Below, piece by piece: positions 1-14,224 of a stretch of 64,000 nucleotides of DNA. The stretch is taken from the NCBI RefSeq assembly GCF_003590645.1, contig NZ_CP031834.1, forward strand, positions 2,480,501-2,544,500, given 5' to 3'. This DNA comes from Mesorhizobium sp. DCY119. Lineage in GTDB: Bacteria; Pseudomonadota; Alphaproteobacteria; Rhizobiales; Rhizobiaceae. The notes under the pieces are model-generated. The model searched no databases. It was not told the origin of the DNA and was given only the letters and a program-made list of their open reading frames with translations. Positions within the stretch are counted from its first letter, which is position 1; each line of letters starts with the position of its first letter. The position numbers were made by a program, and so were the translations under genes.

Positions 1-313
1 CGTCGAGACCGGCCTGTTTCGCGGCAATGCCGATATCGGCCACGGCGCTCACCGTCTGCTTGGCCGTGGCAATGACGCCCGCGAATCCACCCGCAGCAAT
101 GCCGCCCAGCCCGATCTTGGCCAAGGCGCCGTTGACGCGGGCAGCCGCCTGCTTCATGTCGGATTCCAGCGATTGGGCTGACTTCTTGGCAGAGGTGTTG
201 ATCTTCTTGAATTGGCGGTCGGCGGTGTTGGCGCCCTTCGCCATATTCTTCTCAAAGTCGCGAACGCGCGCTTCCAGCTTGACGACAAGCTGTTCCGTCT
301 CGGTACGGGCCAT
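1..313 (-). CDS. Phage tail tape measure protein, N-terminal part
   Basis: Partial gene running off the left edge; 104 codons are visible. The start reads MARTETEQLVVKLEARVRDF and continues with an alpha-helical, Lys/Ala/Ser-rich stretch, then a Gly/Ala-rich segment (about residues 68-90). This is how tape measure proteins of HK97-like alphaproteobacterial phages begin; they set tail length and pass through the tail tube. The ATG lies 9 bases after the large terminase stop, so the two are probably co-transcribed. Having the tape measure directly after terminase instead of after the tail tube is unusual. The C-terminal membrane and coiled-coil regions cannot be seen. Confidence 0.75.
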   Translation of the reverse strand, partial: MARTETEQLVVKLEARVRDFEKNMAKGANTADRQFKKINTSAKKSAQSLESDMKQAAARVNGALAKIGLGGIAAGGFAGVIATAKQTVSAVADIGIAAKQAGLD

Positions 314-322
314 CAGGCCTCC

Positions 323-1930: not shown

Positions 1931-2282
1931 CGGCGCCGTCCCTGATTGATGGCCTCGAACGTGACGTCGGGGCGAGTCCATATTGATCGCCGATCAAGCG
2001 AGCCGACTGGGCTGCCTTGTCCTGCGCGCGATAAAGGGCCGGGTCGAAGGCGTCTCCAAGCGCCTGAATGGCCCGCTCGAGCTTCTCAACCTTGCCGACC
2101 ATCATGCAGAAGGTCCGCAAGCCGGGGATATCGGCAGGCGTAAGAATGCGACGGGCTACAAGCTCGGGCATGATCTCCCGCCATACCTTGCGCGCGTCTT
2201 TGTCTAGGATGGATGGCGGGGAGGGAACGTCATCAATGGCGGCATCGGCCGGAATTATGCCGGCCTTCCGTCCCTTTGTCAT
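1902..2282 (-). CDS. terS: Terminase small subunit, P27-like
   Basis: 126 residues with the profile of P27-family small terminase subunits: an N-terminal basic GRKAG-type start, a central helical core (KVWREIMPELVARRILTPAD, then paired helices) and a disordered acidic tail DGADDDDSSFLD. TerS recognises phage DNA for packaging and stimulates TerL. It overlaps the upstream tail-completion gene by ATGA (2279-2282) and the downstream TerL start by 29 bases, so the three are translationally coupled. The family call rests on overall pattern and on adjacency to a clear TerL. Confidence 0.85.
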   Translation of the reverse strand: MTKGRKAGIIPADAAIDDVPSPPSILDKDARKVWREIMPELVARRILTPADIPGLRTFCMMVGKVEKLERAIQALGDAFDPALYRAQDKAAQSARLIGDQYGLAPTSRSRPSIRDGADDDDSSFLD

Positions 2283-2668
2283 AATGCCTCTAACTGCGCC
2301 TCAACCATGATGCGGGCGCGGGAAATCGTATCATCAGTTTCGCGGGTGAAGACCGCACCAGCCAGATACAGGTCGACAAGATTGAAACCGGAAACGGCCA
2401 GCGGCTTCTTGTGCAGAAGCCCGTGAATCTCGCCCGCTATAGCCTTCGCCTGCGGATATCCGTCCAAGTTGGAATACACGTCGATTTGGAAGAACACGTC
2501 AAACCCGTCAACACACGTCGCGTCATTCGGGATGGTCTGGCCGTTGCCGATTTGGATCCGCGGGAAGACGTTCGGCGTCACCTTGTCGAAGACGTTGGCG
2601 CCTGCTGCGGTGTGGTTCTTGATGGTGGAGAGGATCGCGCCTTGAAGCGCCAACGACGGTTCGGCCAT
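2279..2668 (-). CDS. Tail completion / DUF3168-family phage protein
   Basis: 129 residues beginning MAEPSLALQGAIL. It matches the layout of DUF3168 proteins: an N-terminal helix (LQGAILSTIK), a PRIQIGNGQ strand, a FQIDVYS motif followed by a helix with KAIAGEIHGLL, and a C-terminal strand pattern. These proteins sit at the head-tail interface or tail terminus of siphophages. The ATG at 2668 shares one base with the upstream TGA (TGATG), typical of coupled translation. An in-frame upstream start at 2896 was rejected because it would overlap the neighbour by over 200 bases. DUF3168 membership is pattern-based. Confidence 0.8.
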   Translation of the reverse strand: MAEPSLALQGAILSTIKNHTAAGANVFDKVTPNVFPRIQIGNGQTIPNDATCVDGFDVFFQIDVYSNLDGYPQAKAIAGEIHGLLHKKPLAVSGFNLVDLYLAGAVFTRETDDTISRARIMVEAQLEAL

Positions 2669-3003
2669 CAAGTAATCCTCTCGGCAAGCAATTCTAGGAA
2701 CTCCCGCTTCTCGTCCATGTTCGCCACGGACTTGATGTCGTAGATTACGCCGCTGTCGGCATGCCGCACGCGCCAGGCGGTCGTCATGTCGGAAAGGTCG
2801 GGCGTCCACCGTAGATGGATCACAACAGGCTGCTTGCCGCTCAGGCGGGCCGCTATGACGGTCTCTGAACCTTTCAGCGGCTGGATGCGCGCCCACGCTT
2901 CGACGCCTGTCCAGATTCCAGGCCCTGGATTTCCATACCCATCGTCTCCGCCGGCAACATACTGCTCCGGCACGACGAGCTCTTGCATCTGTCCAATGGT
3001 CAT
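2668..3003 (-). CDS. Phage head closure / head-tail adaptor protein
   Basis: 111 residues with the pattern of SPP1 gp16-type head-tail joining proteins: a WARIQPLKGSE strand, a VIHLRWTPDLSDMTTAWRVR segment and a VIYDIKSVANMDEKREFLEL motif near the end. In this family the protein plugs the portal-connector channel and forms the docking surface for the tail. Its start overlaps the upstream gp10-like gene by ATGA and its stop overlaps the next gene by one base. It belongs to a compact connector module of four genes between the HNH gene and the terminase. Confidence 0.85.
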   Translation of the reverse strand: MTIGQMQELVVPEQYVAGGDDGYGNPGPGIWTGVEAWARIQPLKGSETVIAARLSGKQPVVIHLRWTPDLSDMTTAWRVRHADSGVIYDIKSVANMDEKREFLELLAERIT

Positions 3004-3407
3004 TTCGCTTCCTTAATGGCTTTGCGAATACCGGCCTTGATCTTGTTCAAGGCCTTCTTCTTCCCAAGCCGGTAGCCTGGCCAAAAGAACGGCTGTGCCT
3101 CGGCCTTCTCGGTGCCGTGTTCGACAAGGTGCGGATAGCGGACAGCGGTGTTGCCTGCCGTTATCGCAACCTGATTTTCGGGCACGATGGATGCGCCGCC
3201 AGGCTGCGAGTAGGCAGGGGTCGACTGGCCGCCCGGCGTTACGGCGATGCTGGCCTTCAGGTCGCCTTCATCCTCTGGCGCGAGGCTGCGCATGATGTTC
3301 GCCATGTCTTCGGCAGCAGCGAGCGTGTCGATTGCGGCCCGCTCCTTTGCCGCTTTCGGGATCGCGGCAAGCCGTCGCTTCAGGCTGCCAATGCCGCCGT
3401 CGTTCAC
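3000..3407 (-). CDS. HK97 gp10-family head-tail protein
   Basis: 135 residues if it starts at the GTG at 3407 (VNDGGIGSLKRRLAAIPKAA). The HK97 gp10-like pattern is clear: an N-terminal helix with L..RLAAIPK, a central ANIMRSLAPEDEGDLKASI motif, YPHLVEHGTEKAEAQPFFWPG and a basic helical tail. Members join tail and head. The GTG overlaps the preceding TGA as GTGA, which decides the start; an upstream ATG at 3497 would add about 30 residues read out of frame from the neighbouring gene. I see no strong ribosome site, so translation probably depends on coupling. Confidence 0.82.
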   Translation of the reverse strand: MNDGGIGSLKRRLAAIPKAAKERAAIDTLAAAEDMANIMRSLAPEDEGDLKASIAVTPGGQSTPAYSQPGGASIVPENQVAITAGNTAVRYPHLVEHGTEKAEAQPFFWPGYRLGKKKALNKIKAGIRKAIKEAK

Positions 3408-3694
3408 GCGAACGGCCGTTTGCGATATATGTTGACGAGCGCGCGGAAACCTTCTGGAATCTGCGTCAGCGCCGTTTCGCTGGCCACGCCGCGCCACTCG
3501 TACAAATGCGCTGCGACTTTCAGCACGGCCTCATCGAGCGGCGCGGGAACGCCGTCTTCAAATTCGTCGAGCTTCTGCCCGATGCGGGATTCCACAAAGA
3601 TTTTTGCGGTATCAAGTTTGCGCTGAAGCAGCGTATCCTCGTGGCTGTGCAAAACGCGGCACTCAGCCTTCAGGTCCGCGAGATTTACGGCCAT
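3404..3694 (-). CDS. Phage head-tail connector protein (gp6-like)
   Basis: 96 residues. The sequence MAVNLADLKAECRVLH followed by DTLLQRKLDTAKIFVESRIG is the hallmark of gp6-like connectors: a first loop-helix with LK..LR, then a helix A..YIE..tG. These proteins form a ring under the portal. The gene heads the connector module; about 75 bases separate it from the upstream HNH gene and its stop overlaps the gp10-like GTG start. The second half (PLDEAVLKVAAHLYEWRGVA) matches the typical second helix pair. Function rests on family pattern and neighbours. Confidence 0.83.
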   Translation of the reverse strand: MAVNLADLKAECRVLHSHEDTLLQRKLDTAKIFVESRIGQKLDEFEDGVPAPLDEAVLKVAAHLYEWRGVASETALTQIPEGFRALVNIYRKRPFA

Positions 3695-3768
3695 TTTGAA
3701 AACTCCAATTGAAAAAAATCACGCGCGAACGGCCCCCCACGGTACCCTCGGCGGTCGCAAAAGTCGGC

Positions 3769-4122
3769 CTAGAGGCCCCGGTTCTTCGCGAATCCCTGCG
3801 TCCTGGCAGTGTGTCGGGAATGGCAGGGATGGCAGAATGAGCGCAGATTGCCCCAAGATAGACGCAAATGCGGTGCTTCCCGCACAGATTTGATGTGGTC
3901 GACGTCGGCAGCTGGCTTGCCGCAACCATCGGTGCTGCAGGCCGGAAAGGCCAGCAAGAACGACTTGCGCAGCCGTTGCCACACTCTGTCATAGCCCCGC
4001 TTGGACGGCGATGGCCTGGCCCGGTCAGCGGCAGCTTTGCGCTCGATAGCGCATGAGCATTTGACGCCGTATGGAACTACCTCGGTGCCGCACGGGCATA
4101 CGCGCGGTGGTGGAAGTGTCAT
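3769..4122 (-). CDS. HNH endonuclease
   Basis: 117 residues. The N-terminus carries a zinc-ribbon-like set of cysteines (CPCGTEV...KCSC); the C-terminal half has the HNH core: a cysteine pair in AFPACSTDGCGKPA, the VDHIKSV first histidine, GNLRSFC with the central Asn, and CHPCHSRHTA. Phage HNH proteins of this size often cooperate with terminase in genome processing. I chose the ATG at 4122 because a perfect GAGGA sits 5 bases upstream; an earlier ATG at 4170 lacks this. It sits between tail tube and connector genes, away from the terminase pair, which is not the usual arrangement. Confidence 0.88.
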   Translation of the reverse strand: MTLPPPRVCPCGTEVVPYGVKCSCAIERKAAADRARPSPSKRGYDRVWQRLRKSFLLAFPACSTDGCGKPAADVDHIKSVREAPHLRLSWGNLRSFCHPCHSRHTARTQGFAKNRGL

Positions 4123-4333
4123 GAATTCCTCGGAATGAAAGTGGGTGGCAGCATCACGCATGCCACCCACAAACGCGCCCTTGTTTCGGAGAAAGGAATA
4201 AGCCGACTGGTGCGCTGGACTGTTGCAACCTTGACCCTTGGAGATACCTGGCGGCAGGGAGGTTGCTACTCGCTATTGGACGCAGCCCGTTGTCACCATC
4301 GTTGATGGTGAGGCGCCCTCACTATTCACCGCC

Positions 4334-4765
4334 TTAACTTTCGGCGACGAAGGTCAGAACGCCAGCGGCTTCGAATGAAGCGCTGAATTCCATGTTGCCT
4401 TCCGTCTCGCCGGTAAACTCAAAGTCCGTGACAAACCACGCGCCAGTGTAGGTTCCAACGCCTGGCACAATGACCTTGGCGTTGAACACTTCGCTGTTGT
4501 TCACATGCTCGATAAAGGCCGTCGACACTGCGCTGGACACGAACGCGCCGCTACCGGAGAAAGCGCGGCTGGAAATGCCTGGTTCGCTGGTCCGCTGGAC
4601 AGGGCCACCTGGATCAACGCAATTCGGGATGGTCGTATCAACCGAAGTCGTCGACAAATTGTAGCTACGGGTCTTGATGCCGCAAAGGTTCGAGAAAACC
4701 TCTGGGCCAGGCGTGGCACCGTCGCCAATCTGAATTAGGAGCGTGCGCCCTTTTTGCTGAGCCAT
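4334..4765 (-). CDS. Phage major tail tube protein
   Basis: 143 residues beginning MAQQKGRTLLIQIGDGA. The pattern matches TP901-1/HK97-type tail tube proteins: an N-terminal strand with G..LLI.I, a TRSYNLSTTSVDTTIP motif, then strands ending in FTGETEGNMEFSASFEAAGVLTF, the classic Ig-like C-terminal part. It polymerises into the tube of a non-contractile tail. It begins 3 bases after the preceding gene. A 7-bp hairpin (CACCATC / GATGGTG, 4294-4310) lies downstream of its stop without a T-tract, so transcript end is uncertain. Its position before the connectors is permuted. Confidence 0.85.
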   Translation of the reverse strand: MAQQKGRTLLIQIGDGATPGPEVFSNLCGIKTRSYNLSTTSVDTTIPNCVDPGGPVQRTSEPGISSRAFSGSGAFVSSAVSTAFIEHVNNSEVFNAKVIVPGVGTYTGAWFVTDFEFTGETEGNMEFSASFEAAGVLTFVAES

Positions 4766-4767
4766 GG

Positions 4768-5151
4768 TTAGGCCACCGGACGCTTGGCCGCATGGTCGAG
4801 AATGGCGACCGCGCCGGCTGCAATGGACGTGCCGGACACGAGCGTCAGCACAAGGCGCACATATCGCTTGTAGCCAATGTAGCCCGCCTTGGCAGAGCTC
4901 GAGGCTTCAAGTGCCGCCGGGAGCGCTCCGGTAATCTGCTCCGGTGCAACGTCAGTCCAGGCAGACGAGCCGGTGTCAGATTCCTGAAGCTTGGCGGTAA
5001 AGAGGCCGGCTCCGGCGATGGCACCGGTATTGATGACGAAGGCGCACGAACCGAAGTCTTTGACGTCGATGGCAAGGCCGTTCGTGGTTGCCGTCAGAAC
5101 GGCAGGGGCAACGGCGAGCTTTGCGCCGATGTTATTAGAGAGATCGCGCAT
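4768..5151 (-). CDS. Small phage head-associated protein of unknown function
   Basis: 127 residues, beginning MRDLSNNIGAKLAVAPAVLTA. It shows alternating beta strands (FGSCAFVINTG, FTAKLQESDTGSSAW, GYIGYKRYVRLVLTLVSG) and resembles a common small phage protein found next to major capsid genes, which may be a decoration or head-fibre-like protein; that role is inference. It lies between a strong terminator behind the capsid gene and the tail tube gene, so it probably needs read-through or its own promoter. There are no cysteines clustered for metal binding and no membrane segment. Confidence 0.6.
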   Translation of the reverse strand: MRDLSNNIGAKLAVAPAVLTATTNGLAIDVKDFGSCAFVINTGAIAGAGLFTAKLQESDTGSSAWTDVAPEQITGALPAALEASSSAKAGYIGYKRYVRLVLTLVSGTSIAAGAVAILDHAAKRPVA

Positions 5152-5175
5152 GGCTGATCCTTATGTTTGGGGAAT

Positions 5176-5203
5176 TGAAAAGGGCTGCCCGATGGACAGC
5201 CCC
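5176..5203 (-). terminator. Rho-independent terminator after the capsid gene
   Basis: On the minus strand a GGGCTG...CAGCCC stem (5182-5187 with 5197-5202, extended by inner CC/GG pairs) is followed by TTTTCAATT. It lies about 30 bases past the capsid stop codon. This is a textbook intrinsic terminator and would separate capsid transcription from the tail genes. Confidence 0.75.
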
Positions 5204-5206
5204 AGA

Positions 5207-5230
5207 CCAAAGGCAAAATTTTGCCTTTGG
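5207..5230. other. 24-bp perfect palindrome abutting the capsid stop codon
   Basis: Positions 5207-5218 (CCAAAGGCAAAA) are exactly mirrored by 5219-5230, with no loop bases. The palindrome touches the capsid TAA (5231-5233). It could form an mRNA 3' hairpin or be a protein-binding site; it lacks a T-tract of its own, and the true terminator follows it. Confidence 0.7.
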
Positions 5231-6853
5231 TTAGCTCACGCCGATCTTCAACTTCTTGATGGCGAGCGGACGAACCACACCACCACCGAGACGCTTGCGC
5301 AGGTGGAAGCGCGTCTGCGAATTGGTCGCCAGAAGATACTGATTGGCCAACACCTCAATGTCGATGCGATCATAAATCCGATAGGCCTGCTTCAGATCAC
5401 CGAAGACAATCGGGAAAGCACCGGCCTCAACATCCGGCATGTCGATGGCTTCAACAACCGGGCGACCGAGAATGGTCTCGGGCTGGCCTTCGGCAAGACC
5501 CGGGCGCCAAATGTAAACGCCGTTGTCGTCCTTCAGGGTACGCAGCTTGCCGAGCGTATCGCCGTTCATAAGCCACGAGCCTTCCTTACGGTAGACGGCT
5601 GGCATGCTGTAGAGGAACGCAATCAAGGCATCGCTGTCGACCGTCGAAGCGGCACCGGAAGCGAACTCCGCAACACGTGGATCGACCATGAAGCCGGAAG
5701 GCTGCTTTACGCCAGTGCCGAACAAGAAGGCCTGCGTTTCCTTGCCGCCAATGTCCTCGGCAAAGGCTGTGCGGATTTCAGCCTCAACGTCGATCTCGGC
5801 ATCTTCCAGAAGCTGCCAAGAAACGTCCACGTAAGTGTTGACTTCATGGATTGCGATTTCCTGCTCTTCGAAGTCGAAAGTCGACTCTTCCTGCGTCTCG
5901 GTCTCGCCCTTCCATTTTGCGTTGGTTCGTCCAACGCGGCCAGGAATCACAACGGAAGCATTGCCAGTCGAGCCGACATGCGCATTTTCGCGGATCGGGC
6001 TGTATTCAACGATTTCTCGAATAAGCTCCTTCGCGAATTCTGGCGGGGCAAGATATCCGCCCTTCGCATCATTGCTGCGAATGAGGCTTTTGGTTTCCGG
6101 GGCATGTTCGCCCTTCCGGAGATAGGCGCCGAATGCCTTCTTCTGCATGTCTTCCGGCTTCTCTGCCGGTGCGCGGACAACGCCGGGGCGACCGGACTTG
6201 GCGACGATGGTCTTCAGGGATTTACTCATTTCTTCAACGGTGTCGGACGTGCCGTTAATCGTATCTTTGATTTCTGCGACGTCGGTCTCGAGCGCGGCAA
6301 CACGATCTTCAAGCGTGACTTCGTTATTGTCATTCGCAGCGTCGTCGATCTGATCGTCTTCGGCCTTGGTCTTCAGTGCGGCTTTTGCCATGCGTTTAGT
6401 GTCCTTCCCGCCAGCGGCGGATTTGATGGAGGTGATTGTCGCGCCGGGGTGGGCCGGGGCTGACACGATGGAGATTTCAACCAAGTCGCCGTCGCTAATA
6501 TGCTGGCCGCCGGTTGCGTTCTTGTCTGACTTAAGTGGCCAGAATCCTACGGAAAGAGATTTGACGCCGCCGCTCTTGATGAGCGCGAAAACCTGTTTCG
6601 CAAGCGGAACCTCTTCCAGTAGCAGCCGCCCGCGAACCTCAATGCCGCGGGCAGTTTCCTTGATGGACTCCCAAACGCCGATGGCGTTTTCGTCCTTGTG
6701 GCTCCACAGAATGGGCAGCGTGTCTGGGAAGGACAGCGCGCCTTTTTCGATGGTATCGCCGTATCGGTCGGGTTCATCGAACAGCCAAGCAAGGCCGGTA
6801 ATGACGCCTTCGTCCGTGACGGACAGAGCGCCCTTGGTGATGCGGTGTTTCAA
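5231..6853 (-). CDS. Prohead protease-major capsid protein fusion (HK97 type)
   Basis: About 540 residues. The first ~150 are an S78-type prohead protease: KHRITKGALSV..GVITGLAWLFDEPD, His near 52 (LWSHKDE), Ser in KSLSVGF near 99-101 and Glu near 126 (LVEISIVSAPAHPGA). An acidic coiled-coil delta-like segment follows (about 165-215), then the HK97 capsid fold (KKAFGAYLRKGE, SNDAKGGYLAPPEFAKELI, FLFGTGVKQPSGF, C-terminal RIYDRIDIEVLANQY). The protease would cut itself off during head maturation. I chose the TTG at 6853 because it overlaps the upstream TGA as TTGA; an ATG at 6919 adds 22 residues that look like frame overlap. Confidence 0.85.
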   Translation of the reverse strand: MKHRITKGALSVTDEGVITGLAWLFDEPDRYGDTIEKGALSFPDTLPILWSHKDENAIGVWESIKETARGIEVRGRLLLEEVPLAKQVFALIKSGGVKSLSVGFWPLKSDKNATGGQHISDGDLVEISIVSAPAHPGATITSIKSAAGGKDTKRMAKAALKTKAEDDQIDDAANDNNEVTLEDRVAALETDVAEIKDTINGTSDTVEEMSKSLKTIVAKSGRPGVVRAPAEKPEDMQKKAFGAYLRKGEHAPETKSLIRSNDAKGGYLAPPEFAKELIREIVEYSPIRENAHVGSTGNASVVIPGRVGRTNAKWKGETETQEESTFDFEEQEIAIHEVNTYVDVSWQLLEDAEIDVEAEIRTAFAEDIGGKETQAFLFGTGVKQPSGFMVDPRVAEFASGAASTVDSDALIAFLYSMPAVYRKEGSWLMNGDTLGKLRTLKDDNGVYIWRPGLAEGQPETILGRPVVEAIDMPDVEAGAFPIVFGDLKQAYRIYDRIDIEVLANQYLLATNSQTRFHLRKRLGGGVVRPLAIKKLKIGVS

Positions 6854-7047
6854 ATGAGGCGCCGTTTCTTCGCTTCGCGATAGTTGGCGCAGAAAGCGTC
6901 TAGCTCGGTCTGGCCGCATGCCACGCGGTCGAAATCGGCCAGCAACACGGCAGCCGATTTCACCAGCTTAGGCCTAAACCCATGCGGCTCACGAAGGATG
7001 CCGCGAGCCGCCTCTAGCGTCACGTCGACTTCTGCAGCGTCGCTCAT
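6850..7047 (-). CDS. Small phage protein, possible second tail-assembly chaperone
   Basis: 65 residues, MSDAAEVDVTLEAARGILRE, ending basic (YREAKKRRLI). It overlaps the upstream gene by ATGA and the capsid fusion by TTGA, so it is a real coupled gene. Downstream of gp10-like genes in gene transfer agents and related phages a 60-70-residue second chaperone is usual; size and position fit, but the sequence itself is not diagnostic. It has no membrane segment or metal motif. The chaperone role is inference from context. Confidence 0.55.
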   Translation of the reverse strand: MSDAAEVDVTLEAARGILREPHGFRPKLVKSAAVLLADFDRVACGQTELDAFCANYREAKKRRLI

Positions 7048-7385
7048 GCGGCATCCTTCCCGAAGACCCGATCGGCTTCCGCCTTGGCCGGATCTTCGAT
7101 TTCGAAGAAAGCCGCCTCAAGGATTTCAAGGGCAAGATTTGCCGACGGGGCAACAGGTCGGTTTCGAACATACGTTTCGACAAGCTCATGGGAGCGAATC
7201 TCGTCCGTGCCGCCACCGACCAGACCGAGCCGGACAATTTCGGCCACGTCGGAAACGCGCCAGTCGCCGGCAATCAATCCGTTCATCGTGGCGAAAAGGC
7301 TCTTTCGATTGTCGCGCTCAAAGCTATGAGCAAGGTTGAAAGTCAGTTCGAAGTTGTACTCGGCATCGCCGAAGAAGCGTTTCAT
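7044..7385 (-). CDS. GTA-gp10-like phage protein (tail assembly chaperone candidate)
   Basis: 113 residues. MKRFFGDAEYNFELTFNLAHSF is a beta-strand pair followed by helices with WRVSDVAEIVRLGLVGGGT, a pattern typical of the gene-transfer-agent gp10 family (small tail proteins or chaperones; the usual motif is ...DV..ii..GLiGGG.....A). The last 12 residues are acidic/basic mixed. It overlaps portal (ATGA, 7382-7385) and the next 65-aa gene (ATGA). Such proteins normally lie between tail tube and tape measure, so placement between portal and capsid is odd. Family call moderate. Confidence 0.62.
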   Translation of the reverse strand: MKRFFGDAEYNFELTFNLAHSFERDNRKSLFATMNGLIAGDWRVSDVAEIVRLGLVGGGTDEIRSHELVETYVRNRPVAPSANLALEILEAAFFEIEDPAKAEADRVFGKDAA

Positions 7386-8587
7386 GCAGCCTCCCGTTCC
7401 GGCTCGCTGGCCGGTGTTTGTGCTAGGGTGTTGGGGTTGGCGTACTCATCGCCGCCATCGTATGGCGGACGGTTTTCCATCGCTCGGCACTCGTTCGGAT
7501 TGAGAACACGTGCCGCAATGGCCTTGGTATACGCCTCGAACCTCTTGGCGGTTTCGGCTCGAAGCAGGTCGTCAATCAGGAACTCGGCAAGGATCTTGTC
7601 GCGCTCCTTCTCGCTGAAGAGCTTCAGGCGAATTTCACCTTCCCAACGCTTCAACCAGGGCATCAGGCAGAAGGTCAAAAGCTGTGAGCCTTGCGCCTCA
7701 TTGTTCGACCAAGTCGCCCGGCCATAATCATTCAGGAAGATCGGAGGCACGCGGAACACGCGGCCGATTTCCTCGATGGTGAATCGGCGAAGTTCGACAA
7801 ACTGCGCATCGGTCGACGTCATCGTAATGGCGGAATAGGTTGCGCCATTTTCAAGAATGGCTATGCCGCCGTTCCCGTCGCCACCGTACGTATCAGCCCA
7901 GCTCTTGGTGAACGTCTCGGCCGGAGTGTCGCCAAGGTCGCCCGCCATAGAGATGACGCCGCTGGGCCTGCCGCCATTCTTAAAGAGCGTGCCGGCGTGG
8001 CGTTCCATGACCAGGGCAAGGGCGATAGACTCGCGGGCCGCCTCAATGGGAGACAGGCCGGTCACGCCATCGAGCGACGGCGCCTTGATATGCAGGATGT
8101 CCCCGAAGGCATAAACCGTTTCCTGGCCGTCGATGGTGTAGACGTAGGATGGTTCCTGCGTGGCCTTGTCTATCTCTACCTTGACGCAGGTAGGATCCAG
8201 CCGATGGAGTTCAATCGGCTTGTCGTCACCGTCACGGAGAATGGCCGCGTAACCGTTGCCGGTGAGCAGCGCGTCACGCGTCACGAGCTCGCGGAAGTCG
8301 CCGGCCGAAGTCCAATCATTGACCTGATCGTGAAGCAGGCCATGCGCCGGGTGGTTGTCGTCACGCTCCTTGCCCTTCGCCGTCCGCTTGTACACATGGA
8401 CGGGAAGCTGCCCTGTCGCCTCGGCGATGGTCTGGACCGCACACCGCACTGGGGCGCATTCCATGGCGTTGCGCGGCGTGACCGTGATGCCTGCCGCAGC
8501 CTGGCGTATACCTAGAATTCGGCGTTCGATATCCGTGGGCGCAGATAGGCTTTTGGCCAACCGCCGCCACATAGTCTTTATGTTCAT
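7382..8587 (-). CDS. HK97-type portal protein
   Basis: 401 residues, close to the usual 380-430. Family marks include APVRCAVQTIAEATGQLPVHVY near 45-65, HGLLHDQVNDWTSAGDFRELV, GNGYAAILRDG, HIKAPSLDGVTGLSPIEAAR, a long-helix region with LFKNGGRPSGVIS, FRVPPIFLNDYGRATWSNNEAQ and a C-terminal LNPNECRAMENRPPYDGGDE motif. The portal forms the dodecameric channel for DNA entry and tail attachment. Its ATG overlaps the stop of the upstream MerR-like gene (8584-8587). Here portal leads the structural cluster instead of following terminase. Confidence 0.93.
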   Translation of the reverse strand: MNIKTMWRRLAKSLSAPTDIERRILGIRQAAAGITVTPRNAMECAPVRCAVQTIAEATGQLPVHVYKRTAKGKERDDNHPAHGLLHDQVNDWTSAGDFRELVTRDALLTGNGYAAILRDGDDKPIELHRLDPTCVKVEIDKATQEPSYVYTIDGQETVYAFGDILHIKAPSLDGVTGLSPIEAARESIALALVMERHAGTLFKNGGRPSGVISMAGDLGDTPAETFTKSWADTYGGDGNGGIAILENGATYSAITMTSTDAQFVELRRFTIEEIGRVFRVPPIFLNDYGRATWSNNEAQGSQLLTFCLMPWLKRWEGEIRLKLFSEKERDKILAEFLIDDLLRAETAKRFEAYTKAIAARVLNPNECRAMENRPPYDGGDEYANPNTLAQTPASEPEREAA

Positions 8588-9003
8588 TTATATGCTGCCT
8601 CGCATGCCGCGTAGGTCGCTTCCGCGATACGGCCGAGATGGATGATGTGGATGCTGTCCCAGTCCGGGAGCGCGTCTGCTGAGCATAGAACCGTGGAAGA
8701 CGTGGCTACGCTGCCCGGCTTCACGGCAAGGCAACTGTCCCGATTTATCCAAACGGCGCCTGCGCAGTGCTCCCATGCCACGGCCAGGGCGAGCAGCGTC
8801 ACGGCACCGCCCTTGACCATCTCGTTGGCAACACGAAGAACGAGGATGTCTTCGGCGCTGTAAAAGCGCCGGCCACGTTGGCGCTCTGAGACGAAAAGAG
8901 TGCCGCACGTGGCAACCCAGTCTCGCAGTGCTGAAGGATGAAGCCCGGAAAGGTCGGCGGCCTCATCTGTAGAGAAAGCGCGATTGCGCCGCCATTCACG
9001 CAT
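8584..9003 (-). CDS. MerR-like helix-turn-helix protein at the head of the structural operon
   Basis: 139 residues. FSTDEAADLSGLHPSALRDWVATCG is a MerR-type HTH, followed by a wing with RQRGRRFYSAEDILVLRVANEMV, as in MerR/Mlr family DNA-binding heads. The remaining half has no recognised effector domain. I chose the ATG at 9003 because a perfect AGGAGG lies 6 bases upstream; alternatives at 9030 and 9237 lack it. It overlaps portal by ATGA, so it is expressed with the structural genes. A 16-bp inverted repeat lies just upstream (9014-9029), suggesting autoregulation or late-gene control; this is inference. Confidence 0.78.
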   Translation of the reverse strand: MREWRRNRAFSTDEAADLSGLHPSALRDWVATCGTLFVSERQRGRRFYSAEDILVLRVANEMVKGGAVTLLALAVAWEHCAGAVWINRDSCLAVKPGSVATSSTVLCSADALPDWDSIHIIHLGRIAEATYAACEAAYK

Positions 9004-9013
9004 GGCAACCTCC

Positions 9014-9029
9014 TGCCGAACATTCGGCA
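9014..9029. promoter_or_regulatory. Inverted repeat upstream of the MerR-like gene (candidate operator)
   Basis: TGCCGAA-CA-TTCGGCA, two perfect 7-bp arms, ends 5 bases before the AGGAGG ribosome site. Position fits autoregulation by the MerR-like protein or a short 5' UTR hairpin controlling translation. Confidence 0.55.
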
Positions 9030-9057
9030 TTTTTTGATTTTTAAAAAAAAGCGCGAC

Positions 9058-9093
9058 GACCGCGGGCAGCGGAGGAGAAACGCGCCCGCGGTC
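9058..9093 (-). terminator. Strong GC hairpin followed by T-run, upstream of the late operon
   Basis: GACCGCGGGC (9058-9067) pairs perfectly with GCCCGCGGTC (9084-9093). On the minus strand the stem is followed by GTCGCGC and then eight T residues. It looks like an intrinsic terminator lying between upstream phage genes and the portal operon. The 7-base gap before the T-run makes termination strength uncertain. Confidence 0.55.
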
Positions 9094-9128
9094 GGGATCA
9101 GCCTGCCGGGGACGGCGAGGCGATAAGA

Positions 9129-9154
9129 AAAGGCCCCGCCAAAACGGAGCCTTT
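9129..9154 (-). terminator. Rho-independent terminator (minus strand)
   Basis: On the minus strand AAAGGCTCCG, a 6-base loop TTTTGG, then CGGGGCCTTT with one G-U pair, followed by TCTT. This would stop leftward transcription from the replication-type genes before the structural operon. Confidence 0.65.
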
Positions 9155-9168
9155 GAAGCTGTCGGGAA

Positions 9169-9314
9169 GGATGCGTCCCTATCTAAATAGGGTTGCGGGA
9201 ATGCGTAAACGGAACTTACGCGACCGTAACCCCTCACTTATACAAACCATGGGAAAGGCAGAAACTACCGCTCTCACCTATACAAACCATAGAAAGGGCA
9301 AAAGGGACGCATCC
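9169..9314. repeat. Phage intergenic block with inverted and direct repeats
   Basis: A 12-bp perfect inverted repeat, GGATGCGTCCCT (9169-9180) and AGGGACGCATCC (9303-9314), encloses two 18-bp direct repeats, CTCAC(T/C)TATACAAACCAT at 9233-9250 and 9273-9290, exactly 40 bp apart. A weaker third copy (CACTATACTGTGAG) lies near 9319-9332. The spacing of about four helical turns suggests bound protein. No convincing gene covers this stretch. Confidence 0.65.
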
Positions 9315-9623
9315 CCTTCACTATACTGTGAGCTTAAGTGCGGAATTTAAACATTCACGCTGCAGATTTTTTGAGGGCCTTCACCCTTATAGGGTGACGG
9401 ATTCTAGGAAAGGGACGGTCAGGCTGAAAGTTTCTCCCCCCTCAACCATTGGGGAGTTGAGGGTACCGCAATTGCGGTATGCTGATTTGCACCCTCTCAC
9501 CTGTAGCCGTGTTGAGTGCGCGTTAGTGGCACTCAGGCGGTTTTCTTGTTTTCAATCAAGTGGTTGTCGTTTGCAGAGGCGGGCTTCCTTCCCGCACCTT
9601 TTCTTGCACCGCCGCGGGGCTTC
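9315..9623. other. Non-coding phage stretch with three palindromes and a plus-strand terminator
   Basis: No credible coding sequence. Palindromes: CACCCT/AGGGTG (9382-9396), CCCTCAAC/GTTGAGGG (9439-9463) and the perfect 16-bp TACCGCAATTGCGGTA (9464-9479). At 9513-9535 TGAGTGC pairs with GCACTCA and is followed by GGCGG and TTTTCTTGTTTT, a plus-strand terminator. A weak plus-strand promoter (TTGAGG, TATGCT) flanks the 16-bp palindrome, so a short RNA ending near 9550 is possible but unproven. Confidence 0.45.
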
Positions 9624-10262
9624 TTAGACATAGCCAGAAGCGCCTCGGACGTCTCCTTGGCGATTGCGCAGCACTATCCGCCCAGCCTCGGCGCGGCGTT
9701 TAACGGCTATGTCCAGATGCTCCGGAACAAGGTCTTTCATGTCCGCCCCGCCGCGTGCCTTCTGCAGCACCGAGTTCAGGTAGACAGCGATCGCTGGCGG
9801 CTTCGTCGGTGCAACCTTCAAGCCCCTGTCGATAACCCCCGCATGGCGTGCCGTCAGCCTGCCTGCACGGTGCTCCTCCGCGTATGGAAGGCGTTTGGTC
9901 TCATTCGTGTTAGCAACATGATCCAGCCGGCCCGGCAACGTCCGCGGAAGCGAGTCGGTCGTGTCCATGACATACGGCGCGATCGGGACGGGACGCCAAG
10001 GCGTGACGTGCTGGCGGCGAAGCGGGCCGCCTTCAAGGCTGTTCTTGACGTCCGCGTGTCCCCTAATACGCCTGCCGAGAAGCGGAACCTCGACCGACGT
10101 GACGCCCCACAGGGCGGTGCGGCTGGTTGTCCGCTCCATCGGCCGGCGCGGCTTGCCGTTCATGCGCAGAGCGGCTAGGTCGAACCACGGCTCGCCAGGC
10201 GGCGGCGGTAGTGCCTCGTCCTCCAAAGGCGGCCCGCCATTGTGACCGATGGAGGCGGTCAT
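9624..10262 (-). CDS. IGHNGG-motif phage protein of unknown function
   Basis: 212 residues beginning MTASIGHNGGPPLEDEALPP. The SIGHNGGPPL head recurs at the N-terminus of many phage-borne proteins of Rhizobiales, but its role is unknown to me. The rest is basic, proline-rich and without a fold I recognise; a DLVPEHLDIAVKRRAEAGRIVL helix sits near the end. Its ATG overlaps the stop of the upstream replication-type gene (10259-10262, ATGA), which supports a real gene. It is the last gene before the structured non-coding block. Confidence 0.6.
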   Translation of the reverse strand: MTASIGHNGGPPLEDEALPPPPGEPWFDLAALRMNGKPRRPMERTTSRTALWGVTSVEVPLLGRRIRGHADVKNSLEGGPLRRQHVTPWRPVPIAPYVMDTTDSLPRTLPGRLDHVANTNETKRLPYAEEHRAGRLTARHAGVIDRGLKVAPTKPPAIAVYLNSVLQKARGGADMKDLVPEHLDIAVKRRAEAGRIVLRNRQGDVRGASGYV

Positions 10263-11098
10263 GCTGCTTTCTCGTGCGTATGGGCGTCCGTGGCAGGCGC
10301 CGCCATGACGCGCACGGCTTCGGTGCCATAGTCAAAGATAGAGACGCGCGCGCCTACGAGTTCGTCTGCGTCCTTTACGTCCTCCCGCACACCCGCCGCA
10401 GCGCAGAAGACGCGCAGGCGTCCGAGTCCGATCTCACGCACCGCGTCATTGGGGTTGTCAACGACGAAGTCCAGCATAAGTTCGCTGCCGTCCGTCGCTG
10501 CCATGCTAAGCCAAAGCGTGCCAGCCTCAACCACGGCCTCTGTCACAACCGCAACGTAGGGCATTGCCATAGCGCGCGGCGCTGCCCGCAAGGGCAAAGC
10601 GCCCGCGTCGCTAATGGCCCTTTCTTTCCCCTTTAGGGGAAGAAAGGGTTTGGGGGACATCATGTCCCCTCTACGATTGCTAGAGGGGACATTGTTGTCG
10701 TTTTGGTGGGACACGAATGTCCCCTCTACGGAATGCGTTCTGCAATCCAAAATAGGCTTTCCGAAATTGCTTGAACGAACGGTGTCGGCACCGCGAAACC
10801 ACCAATTCACACCATATCGTGTGGATGCCCTGCCAGCCGGTTCACGGACGATAGAGATACGCCCGTCGGCAAGAAGAGCCTTTCGGGCCCGCTGCACGGT
10901 TTTCACGCTGATCGGCACACGGTCAACAATGAACGTGCGCGCACACTCGGAATAGCCATTCTTACGATTGAACGCGGCCACTATTTTCTGCAACACGCGA
11001 TACGTGGCATCGGTGATACTGGAGTCTTCGTTGGCGTCCTCGAGGAATGCCATCTTCTCCCAAGCGTAGGGCCGGAGTGCACCCTTACGCTTCGCCAT
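10259..11098 (-). CDS. Replication-type winged-helix protein with DUF669-like C-terminus
   Basis: 279 residues. Residues about 10-105 form a winged helix of the HTH_36/replication-initiator kind (WEKMAFLEDANEDSSITDA, PISVKTVQRARKALLADGRI, STRYGVNWWF). A low-complexity linker follows (about 115-165), then a C-terminal part with LMLDFVVDNPNDA...IGLGRLRVFCAAAG...DADELVGARVSI, which resembles DUF669-type phage proteins near recombination genes. The linker-coding DNA carries iteron-like repeats (10653-10730), a lambda O-like layout. Role as origin-binding initiator is inference. It overlaps both neighbours by a few bases. Confidence 0.65.
   Translation of the reverse strand: MAKRKGALRPYAWEKMAFLEDANEDSSITDATYRVLQKIVAAFNRKNGYSECARTFIVDRVPISVKTVQRARKALLADGRISIVREPAGRASTRYGVNWWFRGADTVRSSNFGKPILDCRTHSVEGTFVSHQNDNNVPSSNRRGDMMSPKPFLPLKGKERAISDAGALPLRAAPRAMAMPYVAVVTEAVVEAGTLWLSMAATDGSELMLDFVVDNPNDAVREIGLGRLRVFCAAAGVREDVKDADELVGARVSIFDYGTEAVRVMAAPATDAHTHEKAA
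10626..10730. repeat. Iteron-like repeats inside the replication-type gene (candidate origin)
   Basis: ATGTCCCCTCTA occurs at 10662-10673 and 10717-10728 on the plus strand and inverted at 10681-10692. A further half-copy makes GGGGACAT-C-ATGTCCCC (10653-10669), and GGGACA-CGAA-TGTCCC lies at 10708-10723. A TTCCCC/GGGGAA hairpin sits at 10626-10641. Clustered repeats in the linker of an initiator-like gene resemble the lambda O/ori arrangement. Confidence 0.55.
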
Positions 11099-11519
11099 GC
11101 GCCAACCCCGATGCAGGAAGCGGGTATGAAGGCGCCGTGAAATGTTTCAACTGACGCGCCTTGCGCGCACCTTCCCACGCGGAATTGAATTCGTTTCCCC
11201 ATCGGCGATATTCCTCGCCGCGCTCCCACACCGACACATAAACCGCCGTGCCTTCGTCAGTCGTGCCAGTGCGGTCAATCAAGCCATGGCTACGCAATTG
11301 AAAGATCGCGCGTTGCAGTGTTCTCCTGCAAACGCCGGTACGGCGCTCTAACTCCTTATGTGTCAGCCGGCTTTCGCCCTTGAGAAGGCTCTCCTCGGCT
11401 ATATCCATGGCAACGCGCATGGCTGTGCGGGACGGAGCTAGTTTCGATACCGCTCCCATATAGTCCATAGAACGTTCGACGTCCCGCTCTGGAACGTCTT
11501 CAATGCTTTGATATGTCAT
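11085..11519 (-). CDS. Winged-helix DNA-binding phage protein
   Basis: 144 residues. An HTH spans about 45-80: SRLTHKELERRTGVCRRTLQRAIFQLRSHGLIDR, followed by a wing GTTDEGTAVYVSVWE. This resembles phage replication-accessory or regulatory winged helices. An N-terminal acidic stretch (EDVPERDVERSMDY) precedes it. Its stop overlaps the next gene's start by 14 bases, so it is co-transcribed with the replication-type gene. There is no C-terminal protease or oligomerisation domain, so it does not look like a CI/LexA-type repressor. A repressor role cannot be excluded. Confidence 0.62.
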   Translation of the reverse strand: MTYQSIEDVPERDVERSMDYMGAVSKLAPSRTAMRVAMDIAEESLLKGESRLTHKELERRTGVCRRTLQRAIFQLRSHGLIDRTGTTDEGTAVYVSVWERGEEYRRWGNEFNSAWEGARKARQLKHFTAPSYPLPASGLAHGEA

Positions 11520-11577
11520 CTGCTACCCTTCAGGGGAGATTTGGTTATGGTTCTTGCCAGTTGATGGCTGGTCTTTG

Positions 11578-11796
11578 TTAGGACGCCACCCGCGCAGCGC
11601 GGTTATTGTCATTGGCGTGGTCGTAGACGGCCGTACGCCGATTGGCGGCCAGCCACGCTTCGAGGTCGGGGAGGGCATAGCGAACCGATCCGCCGAGCTT
11701 CATATAAACCGGGCCGGTTCCGCTCATTCTGGTCTTGTTGAGCCATGATGCAGATTTGCCAATTTTGGCCGCGGCATCTTTTGTTGAAAAAAACAC
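11578..11796 (-). CDS. AlpA/excisionase-like helix-turn-helix protein
   Basis: 72 residues from the GTG at 11796. FSTKDAAAKIGKSASWLNKTRMSGTGP is an HTH of the AlpA/MerR-like excisionase class, with VYMKLGGSVRYALPDLEAWLAANRR as the wing, the standard form of small recombination directionality factors and phage activators. GGGAG lies about 10 bases before the GTG. An alternative GTG at 11826 would add 10 residues but has no ribosome site and overlaps a TATATA element. It lies downstream of the integrase in the same direction. Direction-control of excision is inferred from size and place. Confidence 0.68.
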   Translation of the reverse strand: MFFSTKDAAAKIGKSASWLNKTRMSGTGPVYMKLGGSVRYALPDLEAWLAANRRTAVYDHANDNNRAARVAS

Positions 11797-11921
11797 TTGA
11801 CAGGGTCTCCCGTATATATGGTACACGTTGACAGTCGGATTATCTTGGCGCTATTTGCGTGCGCGCATAACCGATATCACTGGAAGATTTGTTGCGCCAT
11901 GTCAAGGCCGTTCCGGCTTTT

Positions 11922-13031
11922 TCATTCTTTTTCTTTTGGCGCGACGATATCCAGCCATTTCCATCCTTCGAATTTGTCGCCGCGCTGCCGCAACTGCGTA
12001 TACCGTTGCAAGCTGGCCCATGACCGATGACCGCTTACGGCTGCAACATGCGGGATAGAATTACCGAGCTCGAATAGCCGCGACACGCCTTCATGCCGCA
12101 GATCGTGGAAGTGAAGCCGTTGCTCGTCAGGCATCTCATCTGTCGTTATCCCGAGAACCTTGCACGCCCGCGTGAAGGCCGCACCGATGGCGTCGACGGA
12201 ATAGGGGAAGATTTCCGGCTTGGTCCGCGACATGGTCTTGATGACGCGCATGGCCTCGGGCGGCAGGTCCACATAAACGTCGTTCCCAGATTTTTGGCCG
12301 GGGTGTTTCATATCTCTCACAAGGATGCGCGAATGCTCCTCGTCGAGGTCGGCCCATGTGATGCGGGTGATCTCCTCCATGCGCCTCGACGAGAACAGGG
12401 CGAATACCACGATCTTTGCCATTGGTGCGGAATGCGGTGCGCGGACTTGCCGCTCCATGAAATGTTCTAACAGCAGATCTAGTTCGGGCAGGGAAGGGCG
12501 CCGGTCTCGCTTGGTCGATTTACTGGTCTTATCATGACGCGACAGCACGCGCTGCGCTGCCTGCATTTCCGCATAATCCAGCGGGATTCCCCATGCGGGC
12601 TTTGCATCGCGGAAGATGGCGGCAAGGTGCGAGATATAGTTTCCGATGGTTTGCGGCTTTCGCTCGCCCTTGGCCAGCTCATCAGCAAAGGTGACGATGT
12701 CAGCTGACCGGATGGCGCTGCATTCCATTCCTGCAATTGTGTAGTCCTTGATACTGCGCAGAACCTGCTCCTTCGTTCGGCCGATGCTACGCTTCTCCAG
12801 GGTGTATCTGTCGATAGCGTCGGCCAGCGTCGAGGACGGTTTCTTCAGATCATCGAGCACGCCGGGCTTATCTAGTTCGGCCTCGCGGTAGGACGCCCAC
12901 GCCTTGGCCTCGCGCTTGCTTGTGAAGGTCTTTGCCTCCCTCCAAACGATCGCGCCCTTTTGCTTCTTAACGATCTGCGCCATATAGGAGGGCTTGCCGT
13001 CCTTGCGCTTGCGTTCCGTGATGGTGCCCAT
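11922..13031 (-). CDS. int: Tyrosine-type site-specific integrase (dusA-associated)
   Basis: 369 residues from the ATG at 13031. An N-terminal arm-binding part (about 1-60), a SAM-like core-binding domain (about 65-165) and the catalytic domain with Arg about 217 (SSRRMEEI), Lys about 242, HDLR at 309-312, His about 335 (SGHRS) and nucleophile Tyr about 344 (LQRYTQ) are all present, so the enzyme should be active. It starts 90 bases from dusA, and integrases of a described family target this gene's 5' end. Further upstream in-frame starts reach into dusA and were rejected. Confidence 0.93.
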   Translation of the reverse strand: MGTITERKRKDGKPSYMAQIVKKQKGAIVWREAKTFTSKREAKAWASYREAELDKPGVLDDLKKPSSTLADAIDRYTLEKRSIGRTKEQVLRSIKDYTIAGMECSAIRSADIVTFADELAKGERKPQTIGNYISHLAAIFRDAKPAWGIPLDYAEMQAAQRVLSRHDKTSKSTKRDRRPSLPELDLLLEHFMERQVRAPHSAPMAKIVVFALFSSRRMEEITRITWADLDEEHSRILVRDMKHPGQKSGNDVYVDLPPEAMRVIKTMSRTKPEIFPYSVDAIGAAFTRACKVLGITTDEMPDEQRLHFHDLRHEGVSRLFELGNSIPHVAAVSGHRSWASLQRYTQLRQRGDKFEGWKWLDIVAPKEKE

Positions 13032-13035
13032 ATCG

Positions 13036-13073
13036 GTACAACATGCCTCTCTGCTGGTACGACATTGTTGTAC
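13036..13073. promoter_or_regulatory. GTACAACA-type repeats upstream of the integrase
   Basis: GTACAACA (13036-13043) and GTACGACA (13057-13064) are direct repeats 21 bp apart, and TGTTGTAC (13066-13073) is the inverted partner, giving GTACGACA-T-TGTTGTAC. They lie directly before the integrase ATG and could bind the excisionase, integrase or a repressor. Confidence 0.55.
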
Positions 13074-13079
13074 TCCATA

Positions 13080-13119
13080 CTGAAAAACCGTGCAACACGC
13101 TGAAAAACACTGACAAAAC
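13080..13119. repeat. Phased CTGAAAAAC repeats between int and dusA (candidate attachment arm sites)
   Basis: CTGAAAAAC occurs at 13080-13088 and 13100-13108, exactly 20 bp apart, and a variant CTGACAAAAC starts at 13110, another 10 bp on. Repeats on whole helical turns beside an integrase gene are what arm-type integrase sites look like. Assignment is inference. Confidence 0.5.
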
Positions 13120-14160
13120 GTGACAGACAAAAACGAGCATAACGATTTGAATTTATACGAAAAAGCCCGGATTTCCGGGCTTCCCGTAGTAACGGTTGCA
13201 CCTATGATGGACTGGACGGACAGGCACTGCCGGTTCTTCCATCGCCAGCTCACCAGCCGTGCGCTGCTCTACACCGAAATGGTCGTGGCCGACGCCGTCA
13301 TTCATGGTGCGCGCGAGCGGCTGCTTGGTTTTTCGCTGCCGGAGCATCCAATTGCACTGCAGCTTGGCGGTTCCGACCCGGCGAAGCTGGCTGAGGCTGC
13401 GCGCATCGGCGAGGGGTTCGGCTATGATGAGATCAACCTCAATGTCGGCTGCCCGTCCGACCGCGTGCAGTCCGGCACCTTCGGCGCCTGCCTGATGAAG
13501 ACGCCGGCGCTGGTGGCCGAATGCACGGCGGCTATGAAGGCGGCGGTGAAGATACCCGTCACGGTCAAATGCCGCATCGGCGTTGATGAGCAGGACCCCG
13601 AACCGGCGCTGGATGCGCTGGCCGATGGCGTTTTTGCCGCCGGTGCAGACGCGCTGTGGGTGCATGCGCGCAAGGCGTGGCTGGAAGGGCTCAGCCCCAA
13701 GGAAAACCGCGATATCCCGCCGCTCGACTATGATCGCGTCTATCGGCTCAAGGCCAAAAATCCGAATCGATTCATCGGCATCAACGGCGGTATTCAGACG
13801 CTGGATGAAAGCCGAAGGCATCTCGAGCATGTCGATGGCGTTATGCTTGGCCGCGCCGCCTATCACACGCCCGGCGTCCTCATCGATGCCGATGCGGCTC
13901 TCTATGGCGATGCCGCGCGCGATTTCGATTTCTCTACGCTGATCGAGACGATGGCCGACTATGCCGGCCGTCACATCGCTGAGGGCGGTCGGCTCGGCCA
14001 TGTCACGCGCCATATGGTCGGGCTGTTCCACGGCATGCCCGGCGCGCGGCGCTTCCGCCAGATCCTTTCCACCGACGCCACGCGTCCGGGTGCCGGGCCG
14101 GATGTGCTACGCCAGGCCTTTGCCGAGATCGATTTCGAGCGCGCCAGCCAGGCAGCCTGA
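13120..14160 (+). CDS. dusA: tRNA-dihydrouridine(20/20a) synthase DusA, with phage-derived 5' end
   Basis: FMN enzyme reducing uridine in the tRNA D-loop. DusA marks: VAPMMDWTDRHCRFFHRQL near 26-44, LQLGGSDP, NLNVGCPSDRVQSGTFGACLM (about 108-126, with the catalytic-loop cysteine in GACLM), HARKAWLEGLSPKENR and INGGIQT. Conserved DusA sequence begins near codon 24; the first ~23 codons (MTDKNEHNDLNLYEKARISG) look phage-supplied. The GTG at 13120 has no clear ribosome site; a TTG at 13147 is the other candidate. The gene should still give a full enzyme. It is the integration target of the adjacent prophage. Confidence 0.9.
   Translation: MTDKNEHNDLNLYEKARISGLPVVTVAPMMDWTDRHCRFFHRQLTSRALLYTEMVVADAVIHGARERLLGFSLPEHPIALQLGGSDPAKLAEAARIGEGFGYDEINLNVGCPSDRVQSGTFGACLMKTPALVAECTAAMKAAVKIPVTVKCRIGVDEQDPEPALDALADGVFAAGADALWVHARKAWLEGLSPKENRDIPPLDYDRVYRLKAKNPNRFIGINGGIQTLDESRRHLEHVDGVMLGRAAYHTPGVLIDADAALYGDAARDFDFSTLIETMADYAGRHIAEGGRLGHVTRHMVGLFHGMPGARRFRQILSTDATRPGAGPDVLRQAFAEIDFERASQAA
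13163..13182 (-). terminator. Terminator-like hairpin at the phage right end, inside the dusA 5' region
   Basis: AAGCCCGG (13163-13170), loop ATTT, CCGGGCTT (13175-13182). On the minus strand the perfect 8-bp stem is followed by TTTTTCG, a good intrinsic terminator. In the excised circular phage it would lie downstream of the leftward late genes and before the integrase, if the left end carries no further rightward genes. Confidence 0.6.
13183..13225. other. attR: Inferred attachment-site core (attR) in the dusA 5' coding region
   Basis: Conserved dusA sequence for APMMDWTDRHC begins here (about 13198-13225), directly beyond the phage-like segment. Prophages of the dusA-integrating family recombine in this part of the gene. 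The matching copy at the left end is outside the window, so the exact core cannot be fixed. Confidence 0.45.
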
Positions 14161-14224
14161 TCCAGTCCCAACTCGTCCGTATTTTTATCGGCCAACACCG
14201 ACAGGAATTCTGCTTGCCAATACA

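Follow-up and report, generated by a model that had tools for sequence, protein, structure and literature searches.

A candidate replication origin inside a winged-helix initiator-type gene of a small Mesorhizobium prophage

The window, by which we mean the whole 64,000-nucleotide stretch of Mesorhizobium sp. DCY119 analysed here, carries part of a prophage of about 17.7 kb that is bounded by a 26-bp direct repeat at genome positions 2475981 and 2493696 (window 13196) and extends over window positions 1–13221 together with genome positions 2475981–2480500 (L016). Its genes encode an integrase, an excisionase-like protein, capsid/protease, portal, terminase, connector, major tail and a 628-aa tape-measure protein. 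The ORF bearing the att repeat (13120–14160) encodes a dihydrouridine synthase (PF01207, 262 bits); its assignment as dusA rests on the 5′ position of the att repeat and on PMC4482086, which describes prophages and islands specific to dusA. The prophage is very small and may be either a mini-phage or a helper-dependent element. An IMG/VR contig identical to it over 13031 bases is not an independent witness. The features discussed below are the following.

10259–11098, minus strand: initiator-type gene (279 aa) with a winged-helix N-terminal domain, an array-carrying linker and a C-terminal part matching no Pfam family
10763–11098, minus strand: N-terminal domain (aa 1–112), a predicted helix-helix-helix-strand-strand winged helix
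10618–10648, no strand: hairpin adjoining the array; the relatives L015, L004 and L020 have one of different sequence in the corresponding position
10647–10654, minus strand: CCCAAACC motif at the 3′ end of site A (gene sense); same place in L015, L004 and L020
10653–10673, no strand: repeat site A, the perfect inverted repeat GGGGACAT-C-ATGTCCCC plus TCTA
10681–10699, no strand: repeat site B, the second ATGTCCCCTCTA copy (minus orientation), its second half weak
10708–10728, no strand: repeat site C, GGGACA-CGAA-TGTCCC running into the third ATGTCCCCTCTA
11085–11519, minus strand: companion wHTH gene (144 aa), the upstream neighbour, kept in both Bradyrhizobium lineages
11578–11826, minus strand: excisionase-like HTH protein (Pfam HTH_17 just under the cut-off; excisionase PHROG)
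11922–13253, minus strand: tyrosine integrase of the prophage
13196–13221, plus strand: 26-bp att repeat inside the dus gene 13120–14160; the other copy, at genome position 2475981, lies outside the window

The initiator-type gene contains three exact copies of the 12-mer ATGTCCCCTCTA/TAGAGGGGACAT with starts at 10662, 10681 and 10717 and in alternating orientation (10662–10673, plus; 10681–10692, minus; 10717–10728, plus), spanning 67 bp (10662–10728). A perfect inverted repeat, GGGGACAT-C-ATGTCCCC, occupies 10653–10669 and a second, GGGACA-CGAA-TGTCCC, occupies 10708–10723. The initial annotation had described these three alternating full copies and both inverted half-copy pairs, all of which we confirm. 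It did not include the hairpin at 10618–10648 that adjoins the array (31 nt, 13-nt arms, one bulge). Considered as iterons, sites A and C are inverted repeats, whereas site B has one good half only. The array takes up 44–53% of the gene and, as in L015 and L020, sits near its middle, some 370 nt into the coding sequence; the array ends of the window, L015, L020 and lambda were set by hand for the position and AT figures. The AT content in the window is 53% over the 40 nt after the array and 57% over the 40 nt before it, at an ORF mean of 41%, compared with 78%, 57% and 52%, respectively, in lambda. Since the window values are modest and the richer side is the one before the array, there is little to point to a classical opening tract, and on which side it would lie is unclear. 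GC skew is likewise weak: its cumulative minimum falls in the 1-kb bin holding the array, and because the curve hardly rises past this minimum it is uninformative either way.

The repeats exceed what chance or coding would give. Allowing up to two mismatches, ATGTCCCCTCTA has no match in the 64-kb window beyond the three array copies; a loose count of three is ordinary (1.96 expected, reached in 34 of 100 shuffles), so the weight rests on the exactness and clustering of the copies and not on their number. In gene order, the copies correspond to codons 124–131, 134–140 (antisense) and 142–149, are read in different frames and encode the peptides VEGTFVSH, DNNVPSS and RRGDMMSP. As these peptides differ, the array is not a peptide repeat. 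When the 279-aa protein was recoded synonymously, three exact 12-mers within 130 bp never arose (0/2000) and three 11-mers with one mismatch arose in 9 of the 2000 recodings. Together, the differing frames and the recodings rule out a chance or coding repeat as the array's origin. Within window 1–13300 there is no second array of equal grade, and TGTCCCC occurs six times on the two strands, four of these within the array region.

The N-terminal domain of the array-bearing protein was modelled by AlphaFold2 as winged-helix-like (mean pLDDT 65.9, with blocks of 74–82 over residues 31–80), while a full-length model from two sequences was of no use (pLDDT 32.3), and the structure search was run with the N-terminal domain model only. 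Foldseek returned weak matches with this model, none at E ≤ 0.001; many of the PDB entries listed are winged-helix regulators, and the viral list places a chromosome replication initiation protein at rank 9 and a putative replication protein O at rank 41. These lists are consistent with an initiator but no proof of one. The array-bearing protein has no Pfam match at E ≤ 1, HTH_36 included, and its PHROG matches comprise 391 and 678, both ‘O-like’ (E 0.034 and 0.079), 270 (E 0.013) and, weakly, the unnamed PHROG 2300 (E 0.0034). The initial annotation had considered the C-terminal half DUF669-like. Since this half matches no Pfam family, we find that view unsupported: the C-terminal piece alone gave no match, DUF669 (PF05037) included, at E ≤ 10, a search in which HMMER filters drop most matches above about 0.1. 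A genome search with PF05037 gave no match in any of 96 genomes, nor in the controls, and is therefore uninformative.

Directly upstream of the array-bearing gene lies the companion, so that two winged-helix genes stand in tandem and possibly encode two tandem initiator-like proteins. The HTH families that the companion protein matches include, weakly, O-like initiator PHROGs; PHROGs labelled unknown, Ren-like and MarR-type rank above the initiator ones. Against HTH_36 (PF13730) it scores 17.2 bits (E 0.0046) at a cut-off of 25, and its homologues score 21.5 and 21.2 bits. It is kept upstream in both Bradyrhizobium lineages with 26% and 31% identity (multiple alignment), and the best PHROG of these homologues in L015 and L020 is 678, ‘replication initiation O-like’ (E 3e-5 and 0.0018). 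Four Haloferax matches to the companion appeared in the genome search. A profile comparison between the array-bearing domain and the companion wHTH protein gave a probability of 1.6%, which does not support a shared origin of the two.

The family of the array-bearing protein is rare, and the two other lineages found both belong to Bradyrhizobium. The true relatives are L004 (on a plasmid of Bradyrhizobium sp. 195), L015 (Bradyrhizobium sp. 164) and L020 (genome G1224); the comparative evidence thus comprises three lineages only, two of them in one genus. Protein searches matched 2 of 394 genomes at family level (the own genome and a spurious one) and 5 of 397 at order level (the own genome and four weak matches, three of them judged spurious on inspection and the fourth being G647/L008, E 0.0045), and a two-row profile matched 1 of 385 genomes at class level, the own one only; the three genome sets overlap. 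L004 is the single match among 72,556 plasmid records. In the genus Bradyrhizobium, 3 of 265 genomes match, namely G1224/L020, one that is 100% identical to L015, and one at the L004 place. Searches of a phage database with the three array-bearing proteins and the companion, of viral contigs for homologues, and of genome contigs with the window protein gave nothing beyond the same prophage, and a DNA search within the genus matched one of two genomes, the own one. A three-row profile search of the Bradyrhizobium family (0/248) is uninformative, as no known-positive genome was in the set. Several candidates were dropped as homologues: G022/L003 has two stops, the weak genome matches G420/L006, G761/L007 and G666/L009 have other genes at those places, and the Sinorhizobium match H2/L011 resembles, by eye, a GntR-type regulator. 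The N-terminal domains of the window protein and L015 share 39% identity. The tape-measure gene near L020 belongs to PHROG 10574, as does that of the window prophage, which places L020 in prophage-like DNA as well. The C-terminal parts of the window protein and L020 gave no BLASTP alignment; consequently, they have either diverged beyond recognition or may have been exchanged as modules across the array.

The relatives carry arrays of similar layout but other letters. L015 contains CCCAAGGTATCA, CCCAAGGTATCA and CCCAAGGTGTCA at exactly 22-bp steps, and in L020 a 20-mer around GGCACTTTGGGA occurs three times, with steps of 25 and 23 bp; neither resembles the window in its repeat letters, and the copies are direct repeats in these Bradyrhizobium relatives, whereas they alternate in orientation in the window. 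L004 retains a pair of 13-mers at a distance of 22 bp, along with a third copy that is degenerate. With so few copies it fails the three-copy scan at the corresponding place, and the scan also gives a chance-like triple elsewhere in this locus. In gene sense, the arrays of the window, L015 and L020 all end with an inverted repeat, followed by CCCAAACC and then by a hairpin with unrelated arms (CCCTTTCTTCCCCTAAAGGGGAAAGAAAGGG in the window, with 13-nt arms and one bulge, ATCCTCTTACAGAGGAT in L015 and CTATTTCTAAAGAAATAG in L020). The terminal inverted repeat of L015 is imperfect (GGTGTCA-TGG-TGACCCC, by eye). A hairpin with an arm of at least 6, a loop of 3–4 and a position within 22 nt after CCCAAACC is present in 3/3 cases, and hairpins of the same grade occur at 7 of 739, 3 of 1048 and 7 of 1018 other positions in the three genes; with a stricter arm of 7, two of the three pass and the bulged hairpin of the window fails. 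The CCCAAACC stretch is read as SPKP in the window and as APKP in L020, whereas L015 reads it in a different frame.

The linker peptide, and even its reading frame, changes among the homologues while the array DNA is kept. L015 and L004 differ by 102 mismatches over 1510 aligned columns (two genes), and their longest substitution-free stretch of 154 columns (L015 6445–6620), a length reached in 19 of 20000 permutations, covers the array and the hairpin together with some 75 bases more. Such a run might also arise from uneven rates or from recombination, and we therefore take it as support and not as proof. Compared with L015, exactly one 22-bp unit has been lost cleanly in L004, a loss that alone shifts the frame; this copy (5901–7011) is frameshifted and has other indels too. 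It thus appears, from this alignment and the shared layout, that DNA and not peptide is conserved in the array. The expectation of the initial annotation that the repeats would be kept as DNA while the linker drifts is borne out on few sequences, i.e. L015, L020 and, with one unit fewer, L004. As the repeat letters are wholly replaced between relatives while the layout is kept, co-evolution of initiator and site is directly testable.

A survey of HTH_36 proteins in the same order shows that the array-beside-HTH layout is recurring and that the window holds a divergent example of it. PF13730 matches were found in 26 of 81 genomes; there were 35 matches, 30 with a locus, and all 30 were scanned in gene orientation, over the 500 bp 3′ of the HTH, for an 11-mer present three or more times with up to one mismatch. 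Arrays are present in nine of these loci (seven inside the open frame, two just past a short one) and absent from 21. Of 115 control segments taken from these loci, two have one, as do none of 600 shuffles, and the same scan recovers the lambda iterons in gene O. Because arrays recur near HTH_36 proteins of this order, the suggestion in the initial annotation of a ‘new initiator architecture’ was too strong. The nine loci include L028 and L053, which share a unit and may be non-independent, and exclude L038, with an array in the forward scan and none in the gene-oriented one; since the first copy serves as reference, the scan depends on direction. In the HTH_36 loci that have the array inside the frame, it starts at 31–54% of the frame, compared with 39% in lambda and 44% in the window. 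Among 13 arrays, lambda included, the 40 nt that follow have a higher AT content than the frame mean in 12 (all but L044), and the 40 nt that precede have one in seven. We also observed GGACA-N4-TGTCC inverted repeats, near to the GGGACA-N4-TGTCCC of the window, in L028 (1758–1827), L053 (1783–1839) and L040 (1777–1856). In L048 (1898–1985, gene orientation), a five-copy GGGTGTCA array, partly at 22-bp steps, is followed by CCCAAACGTTAGGAACGTT and closely resembles the end of the array in Bradyrhizobium sp. 164. Few phage origins appear to have been mapped in Hyphomicrobiales, and a literature search covering a minority of subscription journals turned up no publication on origins located within genes of alphaproteobacterial HTH prophages. 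A simple repeat scan 3′ of HTH domains finds likely prophage origins in this order, with arrays at 9 of 30 loci compared with 2 of 115 control segments.

By analogy with characterised phage systems, we consider it probable that the array is the replication origin of the 17.7-kb prophage, located inside the gene of the protein that recognises it. We infer its origin activity, together with binding, opening and helicase loading, in the following hypothetical sequence of events, in which (i) after excision, the winged-helix domain of the 10259–11098 protein would bind sites A, B and C, probably as dimers, the site centres (near 10661, 10693 and 10715, by eye) being roughly 2–3 helix turns apart; (ii) binding would strain and open the DNA beside site A, at the CCCAAACC stretch and the hairpin; (iii) host helicase and primase would be loaded beside site A; and (iv) the contacts for loading would be provided by the C-terminal part and perhaps also by the companion wHTH protein. 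No helicase, primase or loader was recognised among the 23 prophage proteins scanned, which leaves the loading step without a named partner. Should this scenario be true, a family so far lacking a function would gain the role of replication initiator, together with an origin of known position. We further entertain a more speculative and rather doubtful extension, in which the two tandem winged-helix proteins share the in-gene origin, the hairpin is the loading site for host helicase or primase, replacing an AT-rich tract and a phage loader, and the array forms a joint for exchanged C-terminal modules. The last element would fit the observation that the window and G1224 share N-terminal domains and layout, with C-termini that do not align.

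Other readings of the array have to be weighed against an origin. It is unlikely, in our view, to be an operator cluster at which the array-bearing protein or its companion acts as a transcription regulator controlling early genes and not replication. The two inverted repeats do make the sites resemble dimer operators, regulators are common among wHTH proteins, and the companion also matches regulator families below their cut-offs; however, a position near the middle of the gene, some 370 nt into the coding sequence as in the window, L015 and L020, is unusual for operators, and repeats at 22–25-bp steps beside a hairpin form an origin-like layout comparable to lambda and to 9 of the 30 HTH_36 loci. 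We regard it as very unlikely that the array acts instead at the RNA level, its inverted copies pairing within the transcript to form an attenuator, a stability element or a small RNA. No Rfam family exceeds its threshold in window 9500–14200 (best sX8, 22.7 bits vs 50), and the long inverted pairs are lost in the Bradyrhizobium homologues, whose repeats are direct, with the spacing kept, even though the 12-nt perfect arms with their 7-nt loop and the 10618–10648 hairpin would be stable as RNA and the relatives likewise have a short hairpin after their arrays.

Partition and packaging sites are likewise marked by iteron-like arrays, and a MerR-like gene of the prophage (8584–8991) weakly matches a RepA partition model (22.2 bits, cut-off 348). 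A packaging, partition or other phage cis site that is merely located in the gene is nevertheless highly improbable, given that the terminase genes (323–2282) lie about 8 kb away and that every lineage keeps the array with the initiator-type gene, adjoining its DNA-binding domain. Finally, the array could be a relic without present function in a decaying prophage. The frameshifted copy of Bradyrhizobium sp. 195 indicates that the family decays in places; in the window, by contrast, the array-bearing gene and the structural phage genes are open frames and the att repeats are intact, which makes a relic quite unlikely here.

The reading of the array as an origin can be compared with known systems. 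In lambda, the iterons are bound by the N-terminal part of O. PMC7466680 describes the lambdoid origin as lying in the middle of gene O and consisting of iterons, each an inverted repeat, and an AT-rich tract, and reports that iteron changes which leave the O protein unchanged abolish transformation by origin plasmids. The window resembles lambda in that iteron-like repeats, inverted at sites A and C, lie mid-gene (44–53% of the gene vs 39–48% of O), as the initial annotation had proposed, and inside an initiator-type gene, 3′ of the predicted DNA-binding domain. It differs from lambda in several respects: the protein has no significant homology to O families, the copies alternate in orientation, CCCAAACC and the hairpin stand where lambda has a tract of 78% AT, no P-like loader was recognised in the window prophage, and a second wHTH gene lies directly upstream. 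The comparison therefore supports a lambda-O-like layout and leaves homology to the O family unsupported. HTH_36 proteins of Hyphomicrobiales likewise have arrays 3′ of the HTH at 9 of 30 loci, although the array-bearing protein of the window has no HTH_36 match and its neighbour only a sub-threshold one. HTH_36 replication initiators with iteron-like repeats are also reported from Paracoccus plasmids, for which, unlike the window, the accessible part of the source does not describe the repeats as mid-gene (PMC3832669). In phage SPP1, the origin-binding protein gp38 (G38P) is encoded by a gene that contains the direct-repeat origin oriL, and the phage has its own loader gp39 and helicase gp40, according to PMC6316719. 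The likeness to gp38/oriL is one of layout, in that the origin, a putative one in the window, lies inside the gene of its own binding protein. By analogy with lambda and SPP1, the most likely function of the array in the Mesorhizobium prophage is that of an origin bound by the protein encoded around it.
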